Shown here in pieces: positions 3,834-17,115 of a stretch of DNA of 37,490 bases. The notes under the pieces were generated by a model that had not been told where the DNA came from, ran no database searches, and saw only the letters and a list, made by a program, of their open reading frames with translations. Position numbers and translations under genes: made by a program. Position 1 is the stretch's first letter. Each line of letters starts with the position of its first letter. The stretch comes from Verrucomicrobiaceae bacterium (GTDB taxonomy: Bacteria > Verrucomicrobiota > Verrucomicrobiia > Verrucomicrobiales > Verrucomicrobiaceae), in the NCBI GenBank assembly GCA_027487315.1, contig JAIYDW010000057.1:1-37490 (forward strand). The letters are read 5' to 3'.

Positions 3834-5003
3834 TCAAACAACCTCCCAGCGCTGGGACTTGCCACTCCTCAAAATAGCCTCGCATAACTCGACTTCATGG
3901 TGCCCATCCGCCGCAGTCGCAAACAGTACTGGGCTCGTTTTGCCGCTGGCGATGTGTTCATAGACCGCGCGGTAATGCATCTTATGCACATCCGAAAAGC
4001 CCTCCGCATGGCCTCCTGGATAATCGGTGAAATTCGCCACATCGACATCAAACCCCGGCGTGTTCCGCTGCAAAATCTGGTTCGGCTGATCTCGACGACC
4101 CAAAAGGATCTCGTTCGATTGCTGCGAGTCCCACCGCACGCTGCCCTCGGTTCCGTAGATGCCAAAATAGAGACTGCACTTCCATCCAGCCGCCACTTGA
4201 GACACGGCACAATTCGCGTGCACTCCGTTCACATGGCCGTGCTTGGCTTTGCCAAACTCGAGCAGGACACTCGCAAAATCCTCGGTATCCACCGCAAACG
4301 ATTCCATCTTCTTCGGATCGATCTTGGCAAAGGTCTTCACCTCATCCTTCGGACGCAGTCGGGTCTTGTGAAACGTCTTCATCGTGCCGAATACCTTCTT
4401 CACCCGCGCCCCAAGAATGAACGATACGGAGTCGATCCAGTGGGTCCCAATGTCACCCACCGCGCGCAACTCGCCGCCTTCATTCGCCAGCAATCGCCAA
4501 TTGTAATCCGTCTCCTTCAGCAGCCAGTCCTGAAAAAAATGACCCTGCACATGGATGATGCGCCCCAACTCACCTCGCTCCACCATCGCCCGCATCTGCA
4601 AGACCGCCGGAAAAAAGCGGCTCACATAATTGACCGCGAACACTCGCTTCGCCTTCCTGGCCGCTGCCACCACCTGCGCCGTCTCTTCGCTCGTCATCCC
4701 CAAGGGCTTCTCACAAATGACATGCTTTCCCGCAGCCAACGCCGCTAGCGATTGCTCGACATGGACCTTGTTCGGTGAAGTGATGTGAATCACGTCGATC
4801 TCTGGATTCGCATACATCGCCTCGTAATCGTAGTCGCCATACGCTTCCGGAATCCCCCACTGCTCAGCACACGCCAATGCGCTGGCGGTCGAGCCGCACA
4901 CTCCCTGAACCTGAACCCCCAATCGCTTCAGCGCCTCGATGTGAACCGGCCCAATAAATCCCGTTCCGATAATCCCTGCTCGTAGATGGTGTAGCGGTGT
5001 CAT
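3834..5003 (-). CDS. Gfo/Idh/MocA-family NAD(P)-dependent oxidoreductase
   Basis: A 389-residue protein with an N-terminal Rossmann fold: AGIIGTGFIGP (GxGxxG at 13-18), then the family hallmark CEKPLG (97-102) containing the catalytic lysine region, and the second-domain motif GDIGTHWID (183-191), whose histidine is expected to act in hydride transfer. The family oxidises or reduces sugars, inositols or amino sugars with NAD(P). These enzymes are numerous in Verrucomicrobia and often sit near glycan degradation genes, consistent with the nearby sulfatases, but the substrate is unknown. No signal peptide is seen. It diverges from the tetR gene across a region of about 320 bp. Confidence 0.9.
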   Translation of the reverse strand: MTPLHHLRAGIIGTGFIGPVHIEALKRLGVQVQGVCGSTASALACAEQWGIPEAYGDYDYEAMYANPEIDVIHITSPNKVHVEQSLAALAAGKHVICEKPLGMTSEETAQVVAAARKAKRVFAVNYVSRFFPAVLQMRAMVERGELGRIIHVQGHFFQDWLLKETDYNWRLLANEGGELRAVGDIGTHWIDSVSFILGARVKKVFGTMKTFHKTRLRPKDEVKTFAKIDPKKMESFAVDTEDFASVLLEFGKAKHGHVNGVHANCAVSQVAAGWKCSLYFGIYGTEGSVRWDSQQSNEILLGRRDQPNQILQRNTPGFDVDVANFTDYPGGHAEGFSDVHKMHYRAVYEHIASGKTSPVLFATAADGHHEVELCEAILRSGKSQRWEVV

Positions 5004-5266
5004 GAGTGAGTCAGCAACAAGCTGACGCCCACCCTGAACGTGCCTCGCTCACCAAGCAACCCCGCGCGAGACCGGTTCTCGAAAAGAAGGTCATTTTGAT
5101 CCGGCGAGCGCAGCGGCTTCAGTGGCAAGGAAGTCGCGCAGCCCGCTATTAAATCAAGAGCTGGCAAGCGGCTGACGCAGCCAATGAGGCTGCTCCGCCG
5201 CCGGGCAAGGTGACAAGCCTTTCGAGCACCGGTCCAGGCCCCACCTCCCAGCCTCTGCCATTTCAC
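5004..5266. other. Divergent intergenic region upstream of tetR
   Basis: No supported gene lies between the oxidoreductase start and the tetR promoter. The region holds GC-rich sequence rich in GCGCAGCGGC and CTGACGCAGCC-like words. An open frame covering it on the minus strand has no recognisable domain. The oxidoreductase promoter should lie here but I could not pick a convincing one. Confidence 0.45.
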
Positions 5267-5294
5267 TTGATCTATGTGAGTGTTCACTTACAAT
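5267..5294 (+). promoter_or_regulatory. Candidate sigma70 promoter of tetR
   Basis: TTGATC (5267-5272) is followed after 16 bp by TACAAT (5289-5294), a 4/6 and 5/6 match to the consensus. Transcription would start near 5301, which excludes the long upstream open frame beginning at 5210 and leaves GTG 5303 or ATG 5330 as translation starts. Confidence 0.6.
5276..5291. promoter_or_regulatory. Candidate TetR operator inside the tetR promoter
   Basis: GTGAGTG-TT-CACTTAC is an inverted repeat with 7-base arms and one mismatch. It lies in the -35/-10 spacer and overlaps the first bases of the -10 box, so a bound dimer would block RNA polymerase. Length and placement fit an autoregulated TetR-family repressor. 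Confidence 0.55.
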
Positions 5295-5329
5295 CCAACA
5301 CCGTGTCCATCATCGCTCCCTCAACTCGA

Positions 5330-6004
5330 ATGCCCAGCGACGAGCGCCGCGACCAGATCCTGGATGCGGCTCTAAAGGTCTTTGCTGAGCGCGGATTCCA
5401 CGGCGCCACCACCCGCGAACTGGCCAAAGCCTCCGGCGTCTCCGAGGCCCTCATGTTCCGCCACTTCCCCTCCAAGGAAGACCTCTACCTCGCCCTCCAG
5501 TCTCACTGCTGTCAGGCCAAGTCAGGAGAAAAGGCTGAAATGCTCGGCACGCTCGAAAATTCCACCGCTTCCCTGGTCACTCTCGTCCACTACATGATGG
5601 CTAAAATGCTCCGCCCCCCGGATCGCGTGCCCGAGTTGGAACAAGCCCTGCATCGCCTGCTGGCCAATAGCTTTATCGAAGATGGACGATTCGCCCGCGG
5701 CTTCATGGAAAAGGTCGGACGCGAGTTCATCGACAAACTCGAAGCCTGCCTGCGCGCCGCCGTCATCGCCGGCGATGCCATCGAAACGCCGGTCGGTAGC
5801 CACGTCGGTGCCTGGTTTGTTCAACACTTTGCAGCCATGCTCATGCTCAACGAAATGCCCGGCAAACCCGTTGTCGCTCTGAATATCGATCGTGCCGCCC
5901 AAGTCGAACAATCCGTCTGGTTCGCTCTCCAAGGCCTCGGTGTCAAAACCGAAGCCATCCGCCGCCACTATCACCCGCAGGCATTCGCCCTGCTCATGTC
6001 CTGA
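5330..6004 (+). CDS. TetR/AcrR-family transcriptional regulator
   Basis: With the start at ATG 5330 this is a 224-residue protein. Residues 5-55 form the TetR DNA-binding domain: RRDQILDAALKVFAERGF, then GATTRELAKASGVSEALMFR (helix-turn-helix) and HFPSKEDLY. The remainder is the all-helical ligand and dimerisation domain, whose ligand cannot be predicted. The in-frame GTG at 5303 would add nine residues; starts further upstream would lie before the likely transcription start. Only 39 bp separate it from the propeller gene, and the next four genes are closely spaced on the same strand, so it probably heads the lipid-transport operon and represses it in response to a membrane or lipid signal (inference). 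Confidence 0.9.
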   Translation: MPSDERRDQILDAALKVFAERGFHGATTRELAKASGVSEALMFRHFPSKEDLYLALQSHCCQAKSGEKAEMLGTLENSTASLVTLVHYMMAKMLRPPDRVPELEQALHRLLANSFIEDGRFARGFMEKVGREFIDKLEACLRAAVIAGDAIETPVGSHVGAWFVQHFAAMLMLNEMPGKPVVALNIDRAAQVEQSVWFALQGLGVKTEAIRRHYHPQAFALLMS

Positions 6005-6024
6005 TTTTTTCACCCCTTAACGAA

Positions 6025-6036
6025 GTAAGCACTCAC
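6025..6036. promoter_or_regulatory. Second operator-like element before the propeller gene
   Basis: GTAAG-CACTCAC matches the reverse complement of the tetR operator (GTAAGTG-AA-CACTCAC) with four central bases missing. It lies between the tetR stop and the next start. The shortened spacing changes helical phasing, so it may be a weak or half-site; chance similarity is possible. Confidence 0.35.
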
Positions 6037-6043
6037 TCTAGCC

Positions 6044-7639
6044 ATGGCCTCTACCCCTGAAAACACCCCTCCCACGACCCCACTCCGTCGTGGTCTCCCC
6101 CTTTTCCCTCTCTCAATCCTCATCCTCGCCATCAGCAGCGTGGCCTACGTCCGCTCGCTACCCGAGTTCGAACGCAACCTGAAAAGCTGGCTCACCGCTG
6201 GCATCCCCCTACTCGCCAGCATCCTCATTCTGCTCTGGTTCTTGCTCACCAAACGATTCTCCGGACGCACCCGTCTGAAAGGACTCGCGGTCGTCATCCT
6301 CCTTGGCCTCGCCTGGAAAGCCGCCGTCCGCGTGGACGGCACCGTCGACGGCACCGGCATGCCCAACTGGGTCTGGAAATGGTCCACCCCTCAGCAGCCC
6401 GGCTTGAAAGCCCTCACCCCCTCAATCACCACCACCGCCACCCCCCTGCCCTCCGATCCACGCCTCAGCGAAGCCGCCGATGTCCCCCAGTTCTTTGGCC
6501 CTTCACGCAACGGCGTCGCCCCATCCACCACCTTTTCCGACGACTGGAAAACCCATCCACCCAAGGAACTCTGGCGTCAGCCCATCGGTGCCGGCTGGTC
6601 CGCCTTTGCCGTCGTCTCAGGTCTCGCCTACACCCAGGAACAGCGTGGCGAGGAAGAACTCGTCACCTGCTATGAACTCCTGACCGGAAAGCTCCGTTGG
6701 GCACACGCCGACAAAACCAAATTCACCCAGTGGCAGGGCGGCGAAGGACCCCGTGCCACGCCCACCCTGCATGAAGGCCGCGTCTACGCCTACGGTGCCA
6801 CCGGCCTGCTCAATTGCCTCGATGCCAACACCGGAAACCCCATCTGGCAACGCTCGGTCCTCAAAGAAAACAAGCTCGAAAACATCGAATGGGGAGTCAG
6901 CGCCTCACCTCTGATCGTTGGCGACCATGTCATCATCACCGGCGGCAACCCGCGTGGCCCGGTCCTCTTTGCCTACCATCAGGAAACCGGAGCCCCCGTC
7001 TGGAAATCCGGCGACGATCAAGCCAACTACGCTTCTCCCCTCCTCGCCACTCTGGCAGGCAAACAACTCATCCTGAGCAACAACGTCCGCGCGCTCACCG
7101 CCTACGACCCCGCCGATGGCGCGATTCTCTTCGACCACACCTGGGGTGGCGAAAAATTCCCCAAAGCCTCCCAACCCGTCATCGTCAGCCCCACCCGCCT
7201 GTTCATCTCAGCCGGCTACGGCATGGGCTGCCAACTCCTCGAAGTCAAAGCCTCACCCGACGGCAAGCTCAGCGTCACCGAAATCTGGTCCAGCATGAAA
7301 ATGAAGACCCAATTCAACAGCCCCGCCCTCCTGGACGGCCACCTTTACGGCCTCGATGACGGCCGACTCGCCTGCCTCGACATCGCCACCGGGGATCGCC
7401 TGTGGAAAGACGGCCGATTCGCCTCCGGCCAAAGTTTGCTCGCAGGCAATCGGATCATCGTCCAAAACGAAAGCGGGCCGGTTCACCTCTGCGCCGCCAA
7501 GCCTGACGGCTTCACCGAACTCGCCAAACTGGACGCCCTCAGCAGCAAAACCTGGAACCACCCCGTCCTCGCAGGACGCTTTCTCCTGGTTCGAAACGAC
7601 CGCGAAGCCGTCTGCTACGAGCTTCCGACCGCTCCATGA
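6044..7639 (+). CDS. Membrane-anchored PQQ-like beta-propeller protein
   Basis: A 531-residue protein. The N-terminal 95 residues contain three predicted membrane helices (about 18-36, 50-69 and 77-95). From about residue 147 it has the PQQ-like (quinoprotein/BamB-type) beta-propeller seen often in Planctomycetes and Verrucomicrobia: FFGPSRNGVAPS, LWRQPIGAGWSAFAV, TGKLRW, NTGNPIWQRS, TGAPVWKSGD and TGDRLWKDG are blade repeats of the TGxxxW type. Real PQQ-binding and dehydrogenase residues are not evident, so a scaffold or recognition role outside the inner membrane is more likely than catalysis. Its stop overlaps the mlaE start (ATGA), which ties it to the transporter genes. Its role there is unknown. 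Confidence 0.85.
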   Translation: MASTPENTPPTTPLRRGLPLFPLSILILAISSVAYVRSLPEFERNLKSWLTAGIPLLASILILLWFLLTKRFSGRTRLKGLAVVILLGLAWKAAVRVDGTVDGTGMPNWVWKWSTPQQPGLKALTPSITTTATPLPSDPRLSEAADVPQFFGPSRNGVAPSTTFSDDWKTHPPKELWRQPIGAGWSAFAVVSGLAYTQEQRGEEELVTCYELLTGKLRWAHADKTKFTQWQGGEGPRATPTLHEGRVYAYGATGLLNCLDANTGNPIWQRSVLKENKLENIEWGVSASPLIVGDHVIITGGNPRGPVLFAYHQETGAPVWKSGDDQANYASPLLATLAGKQLILSNNVRALTAYDPADGAILFDHTWGGEKFPKASQPVIVSPTRLFISAGYGMGCQLLEVKASPDGKLSVTEIWSSMKMKTQFNSPALLDGHLYGLDDGRLACLDIATGDRLWKDGRFASGQSLLAGNRIIVQNESGPVHLCAAKPDGFTELAKLDALSSKTWNHPVLAGRFLLVRNDREAVCYELPTAP

Positions 7640-8517
7640 TCGCCCCCTCTGCCTCCACCCGAAGCCCCCAGTTGCCAACACCCCAGTCCGTGTCATCTTT
7701 ACGCCGCATGGATGACTCCTCTCGCGGCCTGATCAGCACCTTGGGCCGGGCCGTTTTGAACTTTATCAACTACTTCGGCCAGCTCGGAATCCTTCTGGGC
7801 GAGGGCTTCGAATCCCTGGTCAAAACCAAACCCAGACTCCACCTCATGATGGAGCAAATCGTTCGCATCGGCTTTGGCTCCCAGGTGGTCGTCATCGTTA
7901 CCGGCGCCTTCACCGGTGCCGTCTTCACCGCCCAGTCCTATTTCAAATTCCGCGACTTCGGCATCGAATCCACCGTCGGCAGCATCGTCAGCGTTTCCCT
8001 CTTCCGCGAACTGGGCCCCGTGCTCACCGGCCTCATGGTCGCCGGCCGCGTCGGCGCCGCCATGGCCGCCGAAATCGGCACCATGAAAGTCTCCGAGCAA
8101 ATCGACGCCCTCCGCGCCATGGGCGTCCACCCCGTCGACTACCTCGCCATGCCTCGCTTCTTCGCGATGACCATCTCCATGCCCCTGCTCATTGCCGAAG
8201 CCGTCGCCTTCGGCCTTGGCGCCTCCTGGTTCGTCGCCGTCCTCGGCTTCGGCATCCCCAGTGCCTGGTTCTGGATGCACACCATCGACCACACCAACCT
8301 TGAAGACCTCAGCTACGCCATGATCAAAGGCCTCGTCTTCGGCATGCTCATCGTCGTCATCTCCTGCCATCAAGGCCTCAGCACCACCAACGGCGCCGTC
8401 GGCGTCGGCCAAAGCACCACCCGCGCTGTCGTCTTCTCCTCCCTCGCCCTCCTCGTCACCAATTTCTTCCTCACGCTCCTCCTCAACTACATCTTCCCGA
8501 TGGGGACAATCACCTGA
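7636..8517 (+). CDS. mlaE: MlaE-family ABC lipid transporter permease
   Basis: A 293-residue inner-membrane permease of the MlaE/YrbE family, which moves phospholipids or related hydrophobic molecules together with an MCE protein and an ATPase. The family core is visible: GSQVVVIVTGAFTGAVFTAQ, then ELGPVLTGLMVAGRVGAAMA and AEIGTMKVSEQIDALRAMGV, followed by several hydrophobic helices and GVGQSTTRAVV near the C-terminus. The first about 24 residues are Ser/Pro-rich and atypical; an internal ATG at 7708 (MDDSSRG) could be the true start, but ATG 7636 forms an ATGA overlap with the gene before. The ATPase gene begins 8 bp downstream. Confidence 0.92.
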   Translation: MIAPSASTRSPQLPTPQSVSSLRRMDDSSRGLISTLGRAVLNFINYFGQLGILLGEGFESLVKTKPRLHLMMEQIVRIGFGSQVVVIVTGAFTGAVFTAQSYFKFRDFGIESTVGSIVSVSLFRELGPVLTGLMVAGRVGAAMAAEIGTMKVSEQIDALRAMGVHPVDYLAMPRFFAMTISMPLLIAEAVAFGLGASWFVAVLGFGIPSAWFWMHTIDHTNLEDLSYAMIKGLVFGMLIVVISCHQGLSTTNGAVGVGQSTTRAVVFSSLALLVTNFFLTLLLNYIFPMGTIT

Positions 8518-8525
8518 TCAAACCT

Positions 8526-9302
8526 ATGCCCGCACCCCCATCGGCGGAGCCCGCTGCGTCCCCTTTCATTCAGATCCGCGGCCTCCACAAAAGCTTTGAT
8601 TCCCAAAAGGTCCTCCAAGGGATCGACCTCGACATCAGCCGGGGCGAAACCCTCGTTCTCGTCGGCCCTTCCGGCGAGGGCAAAAGCGTCCTGCTCAAAC
8701 ACATCATCGGTCTCCTCCAACCCGACGCCGGCTCCATCCAGTTCGACGGCACTTCCCTCTGCGGCCTCTCCGAACGTCAACTCGCCCCCCTCCGCCGCCG
8801 CATCGGCTACCTCTTCCAAAACGCAGCCCTCTTCGATAGCCTCACCGTCGCCCAAAACGTCGCCTTCCCCCTCATCGAGGCTGGCATCAAAAACCCCGCC
8901 GAAATCAAAAGCCGCGTCCAGGAAGCCCTCGAAGTCGTCGAACTCGACGCCCACACAGAAAAAATGCCCATCAACCTCTCCGGTGGCATGCGCAAACGCG
9001 TCGGCATCGCCCGCGCCATCGTCGGACGCCCCGAAATCATCCTCTACGACGAACCCACCGCCGGCCTCGACCCCATCGTCACCGACGTCATCGACCACCT
9101 CATCAAACGCCTTCAAAAACGTTATCATGTCACCTCCGTGGTCATCACGCACGACATCGCCAGCGTCTTCAAAATCGCCGACCGCATCGTCATGCTCAAA
9201 AATGGCATCGTCTATTTCAACGGCAGCCCCGACCAACTCCGCCACTCCCCGGACACCTTCATCCAAGACTTCATCGCCGGTCGCTCCGGCATGACGTCCT
9301 AA
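8526..9302 (+). CDS. mlaF: MlaF-family ABC transporter ATP-binding protein
   Basis: A 258-residue cytoplasmic ATPase. Walker A is GPSGEGKS (47-54), the Q-loop is in YLFQNAALFDSLTV, the signature is LSGGMRKRVGIARAI (from 151) and Walker B is ILYDEPTAGLDP (172-183), followed by the switch histidine in VVITHD. The LSGGMRKRV signature and the ALFDSLTV segment are typical of MlaF-type ATPases of MCE transporters. Gene order mlaE-mlaF-mlaD differs from the E. coli mlaFEDCB order but is common outside Proteobacteria. It energises lipid movement through MlaE. Confidence 0.93.
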   Translation: MPAPPSAEPAASPFIQIRGLHKSFDSQKVLQGIDLDISRGETLVLVGPSGEGKSVLLKHIIGLLQPDAGSIQFDGTSLCGLSERQLAPLRRRIGYLFQNAALFDSLTVAQNVAFPLIEAGIKNPAEIKSRVQEALEVVELDAHTEKMPINLSGGMRKRVGIARAIVGRPEIILYDEPTAGLDPIVTDVIDHLIKRLQKRYHVTSVVITHDIASVFKIADRIVMLKNGIVYFNGSPDQLRHSPDTFIQDFIAGRSGMTS

Positions 9303-9332
9303 CCCTCACCCCGTTCCCCTTTTCCACCCATC

Positions 9333-10382
9333 ATGAATCCCAATCGTAAGACCGAACTCCTCGTCGGCCTCTTTCTCCTCGTCGGCCTCTTCATGGTCGG
9401 CGCCCTCATCCTCCAGTTCGGCCGCGTGAACGAAATGTTCACCGACTCCTACACCCTCAAACTCGCCTTCCCCAACGCCCCAGGCATCAAAAAAGGTTCC
9501 CCCGTTTACCTCGGCGGCTCCCGCATCGGCAAAGTCAAAGACAAACCCCTCCTCGAACCCGACTCCTCCGGCGTCACCCTCGAAATCGAAATCTTCGGCG
9601 ACAAACGCGTCCCCAAAAGCTCCAGCTTCCTCGTCGGCACCAACGGCCTCATGGGCGACGCCCTCATCGACATCAAAATCGACCTCAAAGACGATGGCTC
9701 CGACATCACCGACTTCTACCCCTTCGACTATTCAGAGATCATCCAGGGCGCACGCGACGGCGGCCTCGGCGGCCTCCAAGACACCGCCGCCTCCGCCGCC
9801 AAAAAAGTCGATGTCGTGCTCGATGACGTCAAACTCGCCCTCGTCGACGTCCGCACCGCCATGAAAAAAGTCAACGAAGGCGCCCTCTCAGACGAAGTCA
9901 TCGGCAACTTCAAACAAAGCATGGAGCACCTCAACAAAACCATGACTCGAGTCGACGACAAAGTCCTCGGCGAGGAAAACGCCGCCAACCTCAAAGCCGC
10001 CATCAGCGACATCAAAGACGCCGCTGCCAGCTTCAAGAAAACCGCCACCAATCTCGAAACCACCACCGCCAAACTCGGCCCCATGTTCGACAAACTCGAC
10101 CCCGCCATTGCCAAGGCCGACAAAGTCATGACCTCCGCCGACGAAGCCCTCACTTCCGTCAAAAAAGGCGTCGACGACTTCGCCGCCATCGCCCGCACCA
10201 TGCGTTCCGGCAACGGCCTCATGGCCGCCCTTCTCAACGACCCAGAACTCAAAAGCGAATTCAAGTCCCTCATCGGCAACCTCAAAGAGCGCGGCATCCT
10301 GCGCTACAAAGACCTTTCAACGCCAGCACCCGCCCCAGCACCCAGCAGCTCAGACGCCCGCCGCGGACTCTTCAATCGCTGA
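9333..10382 (+). CDS. mlaD: MlaD-like MCE-family lipid-transport protein
   Basis: A 349-residue protein with one N-terminal membrane helix (about 8-27), an MCE domain (about 39-118; core PNAPGIKKGSPVYLGGSRIG and VGTNGLMGDALIDI) and a long helical C-terminal region (about 150-300) with repeated Lys/Asp/Ala heptad-like stretches, then a Pro/Ala-rich tail. MCE proteins form hexameric rings that carry lipids across the periplasm. The long helical region resembles needle-type MCE proteins (PqiB/LetB or Mce-like) more than the short E. coli MlaD (183 residues), and may span towards the outer membrane. This would explain the lack of an MlaC carrier gene nearby (inference). Confidence 0.9.
   Translation: MNPNRKTELLVGLFLLVGLFMVGALILQFGRVNEMFTDSYTLKLAFPNAPGIKKGSPVYLGGSRIGKVKDKPLLEPDSSGVTLEIEIFGDKRVPKSSSFLVGTNGLMGDALIDIKIDLKDDGSDITDFYPFDYSEIIQGARDGGLGGLQDTAASAAKKVDVVLDDVKLALVDVRTAMKKVNEGALSDEVIGNFKQSMEHLNKTMTRVDDKVLGEENAANLKAAISDIKDAAASFKKTATNLETTTAKLGPMFDKLDPAIAKADKVMTSADEALTSVKKGVDDFAAIARTMRSGNGLMAALLNDPELKSEFKSLIGNLKERGILRYKDLSTPAPAPAPSSSDARRGLFNR
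9357..9392 (+). repeat. 18-bp tandem duplication in the mlaD membrane helix
   Basis: The unit CTCCTCGTCGGCCTCTTT occurs twice in a row with one mismatch at the last base. It encodes LLVGLF-LLVGLF, residues 9-20 of the membrane anchor. The repeat is in frame, so gain or loss of a unit would lengthen or shorten the helix by six residues. Confidence 0.85.
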
Positions 10383-10794: not shown

Positions 10795-10870
10795 CCCGGA
10801 GTCCGACATTCGAGGTGCTTGAGCGACCAATGCTCAAGCCTATCGGGTGCCTCCAATGTCGGAGTTCGGG
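10795..10870. repeat. Nested inverted repeat at the 3' end of the TPR gene
   Basis: Arms of 16 bases (10795-10810 and 10855-10870) are inverted copies with 14 of 16 positions matching; nine bases (TCCGACATT/AATGTCGGA) match perfectly. The 44 bases between them contain a perfect 8-bp hairpin, GCTTGAGC (10817-10824) and GCTCAAGC (10832-10839), next to the stop codon of the TPR gene at 10840-10842. No T-run follows on the minus strand. It may be a terminator-like or REP-like structure. Confidence 0.6.
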
Positions 10871-13800
10871 TTCAACATCCCGGCACGCCAAAGCACCTCC
10901 TTCTCAATCCCGCTCGCCAATCGATATCGCGCCACTTGCACCGGCATTTCCCCCAGCCGTTGCCAACCCGTGAACAGCTCCACCAACACCTCCGGCAGCT
11001 CCCGCGTCAGCAGGTAATCGTGCGCCAAAACAAAACTCTCCGCCGCCGGAAACGCCTTCTGCCGAATCAAAAACCGCGCCCACCCCACCGCCAACGCCGG
11101 TGTCAGCGTCGCCGTATCCCGCGCCTGCTTCAGCCCCGCCTCCCAAAGCTCCTTTGCCAGCTCCTCACGCCCCACCTTTTCAAACACCGCCGCCCAATCC
11201 GCCAACCGGTCTCCCCCCACACCCGGCATGTGCACCACTTCGGTAAACAGCTCCTGTATCCGATCCTCCCGTCCCATCGCCGCCGCCGCCTCCACCATCA
11301 CCGGCAAATGCCGCCCCACCCGCCGCACCGTCGCCAGCTCCCCCGCCACCACCGCCGCCTCCCACGCCGCCCCCGCATGCCCCCCCGCCAGCAGCACGCC
11401 CGCAGCCACCTCCACACACCGCCGATCCCCCTCCGTCCTCGCCCCCGCCCGCCAAGCCCCCAGCACCTCCCCCAACACCTCCTCGCCATCCCCCCAGTGC
11501 CCCGCCCACCCGCACAACACCGCCGCCGCCAGCACCCCATCCGCACCCGATCGCACCTGCGCCCGCAAAAACCGCACCCACCCCTGCGCCACCGCCCCCT
11601 CAACCTTCCCCGCCAGCTCCGCCTGCCACTCCAGCAACCGCTTCTCCGCCGCCGCCTCCCGCCCCCCCATCCGCAGCAGCACCCCCACCCGCGCCTGCAA
11701 CGCCCCCAACTCCGTCTTCCCCCCCGCCTGCAACACCTCCACCAGCTCCAACCTCAACCGGAACCGATCCGCCTCCACCTTCGTCCGCCGCTCCGCCTGC
11801 GTCAGCAGATTCAGCGCCTCCACCTCCCGCCCCAGGCCCCTCAACATCGCCGCCAACCGCACCACAGTCTCCGCATCATGCTGCTCCACCGCCCGCAGCA
11901 TCAGCGGCCGCACCGCCTCCCACTGCCCCGCCGCACCCGCCAGCTCCGCCTCCAAAAGCAGCGCCTCATGCTCCATCATCCCCGGATTCGCCACCGCCGG
12001 ATGCCCCCGCAGCAAAGCCAGCGCCTCATCCTTCCTCCCCGCCTCAGCCCGCAACCGCGCCTGCCTCAGCACACACTCCGTATCCGGCACCAACCCGTCA
12101 TCCTCATGATGCAAAAAACACCCGTGATACCGGTCCCACGCCTTCAACTCCTCCTCTTTCAATCCCATCCGCCCCAGCAAACGACCCAAAGCCCGCAAAT
12201 ACGCCGTCTCCGGTGGCAACCTCCCCGGCAGCGTCGGCACCTTGTTCTCCCGAAACGCCCGCTCCCGCAGCGCCACCACATCAAAATCCATCGCCAAAAA
12301 CCCCGCATGCATCTCCCTCAACGCATCGTCCCCCGGCGTCGGCGGCTTGAACGGCGGCACCGCATCGATCAACTGAATCGAGAAACTCCTCCCAGGCTCC
12401 ACCTCCCGCGCCCCCTCGCTCGCCCGCAGCAGCCACGACGCATACTCACTGTTCGTCGGCGCCCGCTCCGGCAGCAGCCGATACACCTCGATCGCCTCTC
12501 TCGCCATCGCCGACGCCTCCAGCTTCGCCCCCAGCTCCCCCAGCAGCTCCACCGACGACTCCGCCTTCATGTCCACTGGCGCCAGCCACTGCCGAATCAA
12601 CCGCAACCGGTTCACATGGTCCGTCTCCCTCAGCGACCGGATCAAATGCGCAATCCGCAACTCATTGAACTCATACCCCGGCCGCGGCCCCAACTGCACC
12701 GCCCCCCACCGCTCCAGCAGCCGCTCCTCCGCTCCCGCCGACACCCCCGCCAGCCCCTGCTGCGTCAGCAACGCCCCGATCTCCCGCGTCTCCTCCCACA
12801 GACTCTGCGCCTGCGGAGCCTCATCAAAACGCAGCGACCCCTGTGGCATCAGTCCCCCCGGCCGACTCCCCAAAGGCCGATTGCCCAAAAAATCCTCCGT
12901 CACCCACCGATCCAACCGCTCCACCGCCAGCCCCTCCGCCCCCGCCAACCCCGCCACCGCCGCCCGCCTCAACTCCGTCATGTCCGAGTCCGGCGTCTTC
13001 TGCAAATGCCGCCACGCCTTCTCCAGCGCCGCATCCCGCTCCTGCCGCGACCGCGCCGTCCGCGCCAAAGCCCCCACACCATACAAAAACGGATCATACA
13101 CCCCCTGATACCGACCCGGAGGCGTCGGCGAACCCACCGCCAGCTCCAAGTAATGCCGCGCCAAATCCCAACGCTCAGCCGCCTCCGCCATTCGCGCCAT
13201 CATCAGCGCATAATCCGCCCCCAGCGTCCGCGAATCCTGCCTCAGCCACTCCCCCAGCGCCAGCGCCGCGTCAAACTGCTGCCGATCCTGCAGCTTACGC
13301 GTCAGCTCCAGCAGCCCCGTATTCGGCAGCACCCGCGCCTCCGCCAACACCTCCATCTCACGCGCCGACCACCCATGCCCGGGCAAATCCACCAGCGCCA
13401 GCAGCCCCGCCTGCAGCATCCGCACCCGCCTCCCCTCCTCGCCCTTCGCCACCCCCGCCGAATCCTTCGCCCAGCTTAGCGCCGCCCCCATCGCATGCCC
13501 CCGCAGCAGCACCCACACCCGCGCAAACTCCCCCTCCACACCCCCCGCACCCTTCAGCACCCCATCCACCAGCCCCGCCAGCTCAGCCCCCCCATCCGAC
13601 TCCTCCGCCGAGTAAAACAACGCCCACAACACCTCCACCCGGTTCCCCCCCGCCGCCTTCAGCCAGCGCGCCCGCCATGCCACCCGCTCCTCCCCCGCCT
13701 GCAACCGCGCCAGCTCCTCCACCGCCCGCAACCGCTGCATCTCCGCCACCTCCGGCAACCGGGCAAACTCCGCCCGGGGCAGCTTCAAAAACACCCGCAA

Positions 13801-16800
13801 CCGCTCCAGCTCCCCCGGCTCGATCCCGCTCACCGACTCCAGCAGCTCCGCCACATCCGTCGCCGAACCCCGCTTCCCCTCCGACCTCACCTCCGTCATC
13901 GGCAGCGGCAAACTCGCCAACCCCTGACCACCCACCGCCTTCACCGGCAGCTTCTCCAGCAGCCGCTCCAGCTCCGCCACCGCCGCCGCCTTATCCCCCA
14001 CCTTCACACACTGCAACGCCAGCTCCAGCCGCACCCGCCCATCCCATGGCTGCACCCGCACCATCTGCTCCAGCACCCGCCGCTGCGCCTCATCCTGCCC
14101 CGTCTCCTGATAATGTTTCGCCAGCCCCTGCAGCGCCTTCACATCCTGGGAAAACCGACGCTCCAGCCGCCGCCTTACCTGATCCGCCTGATCCATCTGA
14201 AAATCCCGCTCCAACAACTCCACCAAAAACCTCGACTCCTTCGACACCTCCCCCGGCCCTGCCGACGCCGCCACCTGCTTCTGAAAATAAATCGCCTGCT
14301 TCATGTCCTCCACCCCCAGCGCCGCATCCCGCAATTGATCCAGCGAAAACGGCGTCTCCGGTGCCGTGTAATACGCCCGCTTCATCGCCGCAAACGCCGC
14401 CACCGCATCCTCCGCCCGCAGGTGCACCTGCGCCAGCGCCTCCGGAAAAAACCCGTCAAACGGCCGCCGCCCCGCCGCCGCCTCCAGCGCCTTCACCACC
14501 ATCGTCAACCGATCCCGCAGCACCGACGCCTCCAGCTCCCGCCCCGACCCATCCGCCGCCGTCAGCCGATCCAAAAACCGCTTAAACGCCTCCCGCCGTC
14601 GCCCCACATCCGTCTCCAACTCCACCACCTTCAGCCCCGTTTGAATGTGCCCCGGCAGATCCTGCAACGTCAGCATCAGCTCCGCCTGCCGCTCCAGCAG
14701 CGGCATCGCCGCCACCCCGCTCACCCGCTCCGCCGCCGCCTGCCACCGCGCCAGCGCCTCCTCCGGCCGCCTCTGCAAAATCAAAATCCGGCTCAGCGCC
14801 GAAAGCAATAGCTCATTGCCCGGTTCCCCCCGCAGCGCCTCCTCCAGCGCCGCCACCGCCTCCTGCCCGATCGGCGCCTCCTCCCCCGACGACTGCCCCA
14901 CCTGCCGCCCCGCCACCTCCCGCCGCTGTTGCTCCGCCTCCAGCATCAGCTCCACCTCCCTCAGCAAATACCGCGTCTGACTCCCCGGATCCCGCCGCTT
15001 CAACTGCCCTAAAACCCGCATCGCCAGTGCCCGATTCTGATCCTCCAGCGCCACCTCCAGCATCAAATGCTCCGCCTCCAGTGACACCTCCCCCCCCTTC
15101 GAATCCAGCGCCAACCCCCGCAGCATCTCATACGCCACCTCCAGCGCCCCACACCGCAGCGCCCACCACCCCGCCCGAAACCGCTCCGCCGCCGACGCCC
15201 CCTCCCCCCGCGCCACCGCCACCACCCGCTCCAACTTCGCCTTCATCCCCGGCGTCGGCCCCTGCTTCTCCGGCGGATCATCACTCGCAAACCCCGACCC
15301 CGTAAACACACTCGGCAGCCTCAATTCCAACGGCGCCCCCGTCGACCCCGCCCCCGCCAGCTGCCCCCCCATCAGCAGCGTCAGCAACCGCTCATCCACC
15401 TCCACCCGCTCCTCATCCGACTTCCCAGCCGCCCACGCCTTCTCCAAAACCGCCTCCACCTCCCCGACCTCCCCCGCCTCCACCAGCAAATCCGCCAACC
15501 GCAGCCCCTCCTCCCGACCCGCCCCCGGCATCGCCACCGCCCGCCGCGCCCGCTCCAACGCCCCCGACACATCACTCCCCCCCATCAAAAACGACGTCGC
15601 CTCCCCCAACCGCACCCGTTGCTCCTCCGGCTTGCCCGCCGCCCCCACATACCCATCCAAAACCGCCTGCGCCTCCGCCCCCTGCTGCCGCCCCCGCAAA
15701 TGCGTCGCCAGCTCAAACACCGCCTCCGTCCGCCCCGGCTCGCGCCTCACCCGCTCCCGCAGCACCCGCTCCACCACCGCATCCAAAGCCCGTTGCTGGG
15801 CAAAACTCAGCACCTCCTTCTCCACCGCCGCCCCCCCCGCATCCAGCACCCCATTCAACCGCACCACCGCCGCCTCCGGATCCCCCGCCCGCAGATCCGC
15901 CTCACACCTCAGCAAAATCCACGCCACCGGCGCCCGCGCCCCCAACTCCGCCAGCCGCCCATCCAGCCACCCCTTCGCCTCATCCACCTCCCCCTGATCC
16001 AGCACCGCCCGCACCCACTCCCAGCGATACCCCTCCTCCCCCGGCACCGCCTCCACCAGCAACCGCAGCACCCGCAGCCGCTCCTCCGGATTCACCGTCA
16101 ACGCATAAAAAGCCGCCAACTCATGCAGCATCGCCTCCCGTCCCCCCACCTTCGCCTCCGCCACCGCCTTCTCCAAACTCACCCGCAGCTCCTCCAACCG
16201 CCCAAACCGCTCATGCAACCGCACCCGCTGCAAAAAAAACGCCGCATGCCGCGCATCGCGGAAATGCAGCATCCCCAACCCCGACCGCAGCGCCGCATCC
16301 GCCTCCTCAAACTGATCCGCATGCGCCAAAATCCGCGCCAGATCTCCCAGCGCATTCAGCTTCTCCTGCGGCTCCGCCTTCTCCGCCAGCGCCTTGAAAA
16401 ACACCGCCGCCCGCCCCGAAAGCCCCGCCTGCAACAGCCGCTGCGCCACCTGCCGCGCCACCTCCAAACTCCCTGGCTGCTCCCCCGCCGCCTTCTCCCA
16501 AAACCCCGCCGCCCGCTCCACCTCACCCCCACCCAACGCCAAATCCCCCGCCTCCAGCCACACCGCCAACCGCTCCCCGCTCCCCGCCTCCAGCACCCCC
16601 GCCAGCGCCTCGTAAAACCCGATCGCCTCCCCCCGCCGCTCACGCTCCGCCGCCGTCCGCGCCGCCGCCCGCAGCGCATACCGATTCCCCGGCACCGCCT
16701 TCAGCACCTCCGCATACAGCCCCGCCGCCGCCTCCAAATCCCCCTTCTTCTTCAGCAAATGCGCCCGCACCAGCGTCACCGAAGGATGCGGCCGCGCCAC

Positions 16801-17019
16801 CGCCTGCGCCGCAATGTTCGCGATTAACAGCTCAGTCTCCCCGTGGGACGCATACAACTGCCACAGCAAATCCAAAACCCGCCCCTCCTCCGGCTGCGCC
16901 ACCAAAAGCGCCAGATACTCATTCGCCAACCGCGTCTCCCGCGCCGACCACGCCCCCTTCTCCTCCGCCCCACACAACCCCGCCAACAGCAGGCAGCAAC
17001 CCAGAGCAAAGCGTTTCAT
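10840..17019 (-). CDS. Giant exported TPR-repeat protein (2059 residues)
   Basis: The open frame extends upstream to 17076, but the start at 17019 begins a signal peptide (MKRFALGCCLLLAGLCGAEE), so this start is preferred. The mature protein is almost wholly helical with tetratricopeptide-type pairs, for example GDLEAAAGLYAEVLKAVPGN near residue 90 and GEVERAAGFWEKAAGEQPGS near 165; similar ALxLxxxxPxN units recur to the C-terminus. No enzymatic domain was recognised. Very long periplasmic TPR proteins act as scaffolds for envelope or secretion assemblies, but the partner is unknown. Coding GC is extreme (about 82% in the line at 15181) and third positions are G-biased, which creates long stop-free antisense frames. 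It diverges from the toxin-antitoxin pair and lies head-to-tail with rpsT. Confidence 0.85.
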   Translation of the reverse strand: MKRFALGCCLLLAGLCGAEEKGAWSARETRLANEYLALLVAQPEEGRVLDLLWQLYASHGETELLIANIAAQAVARPHPSVTLVRAHLLKKKGDLEAAAGLYAEVLKAVPGNRYALRAAARTAAERERRGEAIGFYEALAGVLEAGSGERLAVWLEAGDLALGGGEVERAAGFWEKAAGEQPGSLEVARQVAQRLLQAGLSGRAAVFFKALAEKAEPQEKLNALGDLARILAHADQFEEADAALRSGLGMLHFRDARHAAFFLQRVRLHERFGRLEELRVSLEKAVAEAKVGGREAMLHELAAFYALTVNPEERLRVLRLLVEAVPGEEGYRWEWVRAVLDQGEVDEAKGWLDGRLAELGARAPVAWILLRCEADLRAGDPEAAVVRLNGVLDAGGAAVEKEVLSFAQQRALDAVVERVLRERVRREPGRTEAVFELATHLRGRQQGAEAQAVLDGYVGAAGKPEEQRVRLGEATSFLMGGSDVSGALERARRAVAMPGAGREEGLRLADLLVEAGEVGEVEAVLEKAWAAGKSDEERVEVDERLLTLLMGGQLAGAGSTGAPLELRLPSVFTGSGFASDDPPEKQGPTPGMKAKLERVVAVARGEGASAAERFRAGWWALRCGALEVAYEMLRGLALDSKGGEVSLEAEHLMLEVALEDQNRALAMRVLGQLKRRDPGSQTRYLLREVELMLEAEQQRREVAGRQVGQSSGEEAPIGQEAVAALEEALRGEPGNELLLSALSRILILQRRPEEALARWQAAAERVSGVAAMPLLERQAELMLTLQDLPGHIQTGLKVVELETDVGRRREAFKRFLDRLTAADGSGRELEASVLRDRLTMVVKALEAAAGRRPFDGFFPEALAQVHLRAEDAVAAFAAMKRAYYTAPETPFSLDQLRDAALGVEDMKQAIYFQKQVAASAGPGEVSKESRFLVELLERDFQMDQADQVRRRLERRFSQDVKALQGLAKHYQETGQDEAQRRVLEQMVRVQPWDGRVRLELALQCVKVGDKAAAVAELERLLEKLPVKAVGGQGLASLPLPMTEVRSEGKRGSATDVAELLESVSGIEPGELERLRVFLKLPRAEFARLPEVAEMQRLRAVEELARLQAGEERVAWRARWLKAAGGNRVEVLWALFYSAEESDGGAELAGLVDGVLKGAGGVEGEFARVWVLLRGHAMGAALSWAKDSAGVAKGEEGRRVRMLQAGLLALVDLPGHGWSAREMEVLAEARVLPNTGLLELTRKLQDRQQFDAALALGEWLRQDSRTLGADYALMMARMAEAAERWDLARHYLELAVGSPTPPGRYQGVYDPFLYGVGALARTARSRQERDAALEKAWRHLQKTPDSDMTELRRAAVAGLAGAEGLAVERLDRWVTEDFLGNRPLGSRPGGLMPQGSLRFDEAPQAQSLWEETREIGALLTQQGLAGVSAGAEERLLERWGAVQLGPRPGYEFNELRIAHLIRSLRETDHVNRLRLIRQWLAPVDMKAESSVELLGELGAKLEASAMAREAIEVYRLLPERAPTNSEYASWLLRASEGAREVEPGRSFSIQLIDAVPPFKPPTPGDDALREMHAGFLAMDFDVVALRERAFRENKVPTLPGRLPPETAYLRALGRLLGRMGLKEEELKAWDRYHGCFLHHEDDGLVPDTECVLRQARLRAEAGRKDEALALLRGHPAVANPGMMEHEALLLEAELAGAAGQWEAVRPLMLRAVEQHDAETVVRLAAMLRGLGREVEALNLLTQAERRTKVEADRFRLRLELVEVLQAGGKTELGALQARVGVLLRMGGREAAAEKRLLEWQAELAGKVEGAVAQGWVRFLRAQVRSGADGVLAAAVLCGWAGHWGDGEEVLGEVLGAWRAGARTEGDRRCVEVAAGVLLAGGHAGAAWEAAVVAGELATVRRVGRHLPVMVEAAAAMGREDRIQELFTEVVHMPGVGGDRLADWAAVFEKVGREELAKELWEAGLKQARDTATLTPALAVGWARFLIRQKAFPAAESFVLAHDYLLTRELPEVLVELFTGWQRLGEMPVQVARYRLASGIEKEVLWRAGMLNPNSDIGGTR

Positions 17020-17115
17020 AAAACAAAAATCCCGACCCCCCATTGAAAACGAAACCCACCCCCCATGAAAGCGCATTTTTCAATCAACTCGAGTCATGGG
17101 TCAGCCCAACATACC

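Follow-up and report, generated by a model that had tools for sequence, protein, structure and literature searches.

SlmA of Escherichia coli is the described TetR protein whose operator comes closest to the second of the two sites reported here. It binds GTGAGTACTCAC (PMC3116907), and is found on its site as a dimer of dimers (PMC4726725; also PMC4117426). A SlmA site inserted between the -10 and -35 boxes represses a reporter (PMC3573117). Overlapping palindromes are bound by two dimers also in the case of QacR, CprB (PMC4150764) and DarR (PMC10636190). FadRSa of Sulfolobus acidocaldarius, a single TetR-family regulator, occupies some operators as one dimer and others as two (PMC6449355). 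At the Chlamydia trpRBA locus the operator of YtgR lies between a regulator gene and the target genes, and YtgR reportedly both represses a promoter internal to the locus and terminates upstream transcripts between trpR and trpB (PMC6504234). Termination at roadblocks made by DNA-bound repressors is established (PMC10310618). Judged by title and abstract, no openly licensed paper among the search matches listed describes the system presented below.

The locus resides in the window, the whole stretch of 37,490 nucleotides analysed, from a Verrucomicrobiaceae bacterium. It features a tetR gene with two related palindromes, called site 1 and site 2:

5267..5294, plus strand: tetR promoter found by consensus scan, TTGATC (5267-5272), 16-bp spacer, TACAAT (5289-5294)
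5276..5291, no strand assigned: site 1, operator GTGAGTG-TT-CACTTAC of single-dimer geometry (GTRAG N6 CTYAC), predicted from sequence and conservation
5303..6004, plus strand: TetR-family repressor gene, stop codon included, GTG start proposed at 5303 (TetR_N; alignment of 11 orthologues)
6005..6010, plus strand: T-tract, a run of 6 T (a U-tract once transcribed) which follows the tetR stop codon immediately and precedes site 2 by 13 nt
6024..6037, no strand assigned: site 2, palindrome AGTAAG-CA-CTCACT (GTRAG N2 CTYAC), operator predicted from conservation
6044..7639, plus strand: BamB-like (PQQ_2) beta-propeller gene (PQQ_2, E 4.4e-23)
7636-8517, plus strand: mlaE (Pfam MlaE)
8526-9302, plus strand: mlaF (Pfam ABC_tran)
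9333-10382, plus strand: mlaD (Pfam MlaD); mlaEFD span 7636..10382

The arrangement is probably a local, autoregulated TetR-family repressor circuit served by two operators of different geometry. As far as sequence and conservation tell, the circuit is real and conserved; its type, a local TetR which regulates itself, is an ordinary one, and the second operator is a variant. Since site 1 fills the spacer between -35 and -10, a TetR dimer sitting there would shut the tetR promoter. Site 2 would take a pair of dimers, as in the case of SlmA, QacR or DarR, and TetR bound there would prevent transcription that started at tetR from entering the propeller gene (and, in this genus, mlaEFD) or, alternatively, repress an internal promoter. 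A ligand would release TetR; fatty acids and acyl-CoA are a guess based on a weak similarity of the HTH to those of FasR and FadR.

The TetR_N domain (PF00440) is recognized in the protein with E 1.2e-19 and 70.2 bits (cut-off 24). GTG 5303, probably the start codon, aligns with the ATG or GTG of relatives, several of which lack ATG 5330; the tetR mRNA would be nearly leaderless if transcripts start near 5301, as proposed in the initial annotation. The AlphaFold2 model, all-helical and of modest quality (pLDDT 69.5), features the helical ligand-binding C-terminal domain of the TetR family. It aligns with TetR structures over 170-200 residues (best Z 13.3, rmsd 3.8, 201 aligned). The nearest solved structures are TetR proteins generally, AvaR1, FadR of Bacillus and many others being tied at Z ~12-13, and the model thus supports assignment to the TetR family, and to nothing narrower. 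We know of no characterised member of this TetR subgroup.

SlmA shares with this regulator the operator type, GTGAGTACTCAC being the closest sequence to site 2, and a nearly identical recognition helix (VSEAALYRHFPSK in SlmA, VSEALMFRHFPSK here). The two proteins align by BLASTP over the HTH alone (23/52 identical), and the SlmA fold match (Z 11.6, rmsd 4.1, 172 aligned) is tied with those of many other TetR proteins. Orthology to SlmA was rejected, as the score against NCBIfam NF007015 is 38.9 bits, versus a cut-off of 120. SlmA acts on FtsZ and binds at 24-52 scattered places; here, in contrast, a single such site is found beside the gene of the regulator itself, and GTRAGYRCTYAC, far from marking dozens of scattered places, occurs once in the 5.87-Mb genome, at site 2 (7 occurrences for the reversed control). 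The layout of overlapping palindromes is that of QacR, CprB and DarR, the pairing of dimers being suggested here by sequence alone. FadRSa differs as it is archaeal and has another operator sequence and other genes. YtgR differs in being iron-dependent and in acting within a 348-bp intergenic region; the text of PMC6504234 gives no match to poly-U.

Site 1 corresponds exactly to GTGAGTGTTCACTTAC, occupies the spacer of the tetR promoter, and has 3 bases in common with the -10 box. A palindrome at 5276-5291, between TTGATC and TACAAT and overlapping the -10 box, had been reported in the initial annotation, and its sequence and coordinates are correct. At up to 3 mismatches GTGAGTGTTCACTTAC matches nowhere else in the window (0.06 expected), and the one exact match to the general form GTRAGTGNNCACTYAC in the 5.87-Mb genome is site 1. 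At up to 2 mismatches GTRAGTGNNCACTYAC yields 17 matches per strand in the genome versus 23 for the reversed control and, as it is no commoner than the latter, a large regulon is not indicated. A wider regulon was rejected also because the exact patterns of sites 1 and 2 mark just these two places in the genome.

Site 2 is a palindrome in its own right, AGTRAGYRCTYACT (6024-6037), with one unmatched pair besides the centre; the core GTAAGCACTCAC is located at 6025-6036, where a related GTAAG-CACTCAC between tetR and the propeller gene had already been spotted. Its half-sites are those of site 1, placed 4 bp closer together. The general form is AGTRAG-NN-CTYACT, flanked in most cases by one further purine/pyrimidine pair; the outer left base is T, and not a purine, in G020, G004, G014 and G239.

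Full-length matches to the TetR protein (60-100% identity) were found in 12 of 57 relatives, other matches being N-terminal or weak, and in 14 of 68 genomes of the family. Throughout the phylum, matches at E 1e-20 are found in 6 of 387 genomes, five in the family and one in G239, a class-level relative with an orthologue of 38% identity. A scan of named genomes added L075, a Verrucomicrobia subdivision 3 MAG (TetR 54% identical), and L076, an Opitutaceae MAG (35%). The 14 family genomes and L075 form the set of 15 genomes used below, in all of which the TetR orthologue is 54% identical or more; L074, a record of G020, was left out of all counts, except the T-tract background count of 75 ORFs.

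Both sites are present in 15/15 genomes, AGTRAGNNCTYACT being located 741-768 bp beyond site 1; related genomes in these counts are not independent events, and the search demanded both a TTGA close to site 1 and an exact match to the site-2 pattern, with which all 15 complied. TTGA directly precedes site 1 in each of the 15. Several relatives have a weaker -10 box. Mean pairwise identity, calculated for 10 representatives, is 0.78 at site 1, versus 0.27 and 0.26 farther out; at site 2 (16 bp) it is 0.85, versus 0.33 in the 12 bp to the left and 0.31 in the 20 bp to the right. G239 has TTGACA-AA-GTAAGCATTCACTTAC before tetR, site 1 thus residing in the promoter spacer there too, and AGTAAACGCTTACT after tetR, with one mismatch to the site-2 pattern. 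L076 has one similar palindrome before tetR; a palindrome was looked for after tetR, and none was seen. These two genomes are the limits of the conservation. Presence of site 1 before orthologous tetR genes, which had been set beforehand as the test of the proposed operator, is hence observed in all 15 genomes and in G239. A conserved palindrome in its own promoter is the mark of an autoregulated local repressor. The autoregulation suggested in the initial annotation fits both position and conservation, since an operator filling the -35/-10 spacer is as expected for autorepression; binding to site 1 and repression by TetR of its own gene are what these sequences predict.

Propeller genes are common in the family (66 of 68 genomes at E 1e-60), and provide a natural control. 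In the 30 best propeller loci, one per genome, the 14-bp site 2 precedes all 14 propeller genes which follow this tetR, and none of the 16 others. The latter are 46-74% identical to the propeller of the window, and their loci showed no match to tetR at E 1e-5. It is hence the regulator, rather than the target, that site 2 accompanies. L075 keeps site 2 though the next gene is metallo-hydrolase-like (named by eye), and the gene following site 2 in G239 is efflux membrane-fusion-like, as judged by eye from the DNA. By itself, the 14-bp pattern was found in 21 of 57 relatives, 12 at this locus and 9 with other matches only.

The conserved partner of this tetR is the BamB-like propeller gene, which adjoins it in 12 of 12 family genomes examined. 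The start of mlaE overlaps the propeller stop codon, and the lipid-transport genes are therefore probably under the same control in the genus of the window. Among 12 family genomes, mlaEFD come after the propeller gene in 3, namely the window, G001 and G003, all of this genus; some of the stretches retrieved for this count extend a short way past the propeller gene only. Conserved adjacency to mlaEFD, which would mark a dedicated Mla regulator, is thus limited to 3/12 genomes of one genus. Control of a lipid-transport operon, put forward in the initial annotation, is plausible in this genus but does not hold generally, the conserved pair being tetR and the propeller gene. Farther along, the minus strand of the window carries an open frame of 2078 codons (10840-17076).

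Operators of these types were searched also in a distant set of 78 TetR loci (80 minus L074 and L075). Either form is found within 200 bp upstream of the gene in 12 of the 78, or in 13 when the search extends 40 bases past the estimated start. Elsewhere in the distant loci (805,671 bp) there are 4 matches to one form and 0 to the other, a rate at which ~0.08 would be expected. In all 13 cases the third residue of the recognition helix of the TetR concerned is acidic (13/28 genes with such a residue versus 0/50 of the genes without it); the p value of this association, 1.7e-7, is too small because many of the 50 genes are closely related (Thiobacillus and others). The operator is absent in the other 15 of the 28 genes with the acidic residue. 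In L015 (G018), another TetR gene, located upstream of an apparent efflux operon, is accompanied at ~1440-1485 by two palindromes in tandem, GTAAGTAACCACTTAC and GCAAGTAGTCACTTGC, whose half-sites are of this type too. In L036 (G037), a 20-bp palindrome, GAAAGTAAGCACTTACTTTC, is found at ~1500-1520 directly after TTGACA at a different TetR gene, and includes a core of the site-2 type.

What site 2 represents may be judged from its spacing. The four central bases of site 1 are missing, and in the initial annotation site 2 was accordingly allowed to be a half-site. That it is a chance half-site is extremely improbable, as the palindrome is kept in 15/15 genomes, is single in its own, and is missing where tetR is missing; conservation and the comparison of loci with and without tetR led us to reject both a half-site and a chance origin. 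The half-site idea is unsupported, since the half-sites of site 2 are spaced differently and form a conserved palindrome, which accompanies this TetR and is missing in its absence. Site 2 is best read as two overlapping registers similar to site 1, with centres 4 bp apart, which would leave room for a pair of dimers. A matrix built from 16 site-1 sequences alone, and made symmetrical, scores site 2 of the window at offsets -2 and +2 with 11.3 and 9.1 bits; the two scores have common bases, and are thus not independent. Such values are reached at 0 and 2 of 141,690 control positions, respectively, and scores in other genomes are as high as 16.2 bits. In the window, all remaining offsets between -6 and +6 score negatively. 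Registers -2 and +2, the overlapping palindromes expected for a TetR protein acting as a pair of dimers, are found in 15/15 genomes. An acidobacterial TetR whose helix is related (locus L081) is associated with GTAAGTAAGTGCTTACTTAC, in which both registers are complete. Alternatively, one dimer might bind both geometries by opening and closing its DNA-binding domains, with no dimer pair at site 2. The GTRAG half-site is indeed identical in both sites, and spacing alone (6 or 2) differs. We regard this as improbable: a 4-bp shift rotates the half-sites by roughly 140 degrees (an estimate, at ~10.5 bp per turn), the centred register is strongly negative in the matrix, and two SlmA dimers occupy the same type of sequence (PMC4726725).

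Site 2 may be the operator of a separate propeller promoter, which has a substantial chance of being correct, though somewhat below even, as an operator directly 5' of the target gene is in the usual place. No consistent -35/-10 pair surrounds site 2 in the 15 genomes, and a conserved sigma-70 promoter was rejected on this ground; the tetR promoter is the sole promoter-like site in the 4900-7200 interval, though a non-standard promoter may be present. One regulator with two operators on one stretch might also form a DNA loop joining sites 1 and 2. The distance between them (741 to 768 bp) tracks the length of tetR and of the gap, and its variation without helical phasing makes phased looping unlikely; a loop of any kind seems very improbable. 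A further feature is the T-tract. Tracts of 5-8 T are found 12-16 nt 5' of site 2 in 15/15 genomes and in G239, including those where the downstream gene differs (L075, G239), and are rare by chance (background, 311 of 30,598 positions). Runs of at least 5 T within 45 nt of the stop codon were found in 12 of 75 long ORFs (11 loci), and 10 of the 12 are this tetR. No consistent stem adjoins the T-tract in the 15 genomes, and an intrinsic terminator was for this reason rejected.

Site 2 and the T-tract together might instead form a repressor-dependent terminator, a specific mechanism within the favoured circuit which we consider possible, yet rather doubtful. On leaving tetR, RNA polymerase would run into TetR bound to site 2 and halt while the 3' end of its RNA is the U-tract, the weak hybrid would favour release, and tetR would be transcribed without the target until a ligand removes TetR. 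RNA polymerase halts ~14 nt before EcoRI-Q111. If this distance applies, the RNA 3' end of the halted enzyme would fall approximately at the T-tract; the figure was not found in the parts covered of PMC9098449, PMC10310618, PMC11014978 and PMC4132739. Repressors are known to cause roadblock termination (PMC10310618), and YtgR is reported to do so (PMC6504234). Against a terminator, the T-tract could belong to an unrecognised promoter or aid translation. A U-tract, 12-16 nt and a double TetR operator could make up a portable repressor-dependent terminator, uncoupling autorepression at site 1 from downstream control, a tentative view to which we give less than even weight by a wide margin. It is with the same reserve that the downstream gene can be seen as swapped between lineages, being a propeller, a metallo-hydrolase-like or an efflux membrane-fusion-like gene.

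The analysis provides a sequence-tested operator assignment for this TetR subgroup, and ties one type of recognition helix to GTRAGT half-sites across several phyla, as well as to SlmA. If the reading of the T-tract is true, a single repressor would perform two tasks through operators of two architectures: it would block initiation at the tetR promoter, and elongation between tetR and the target.
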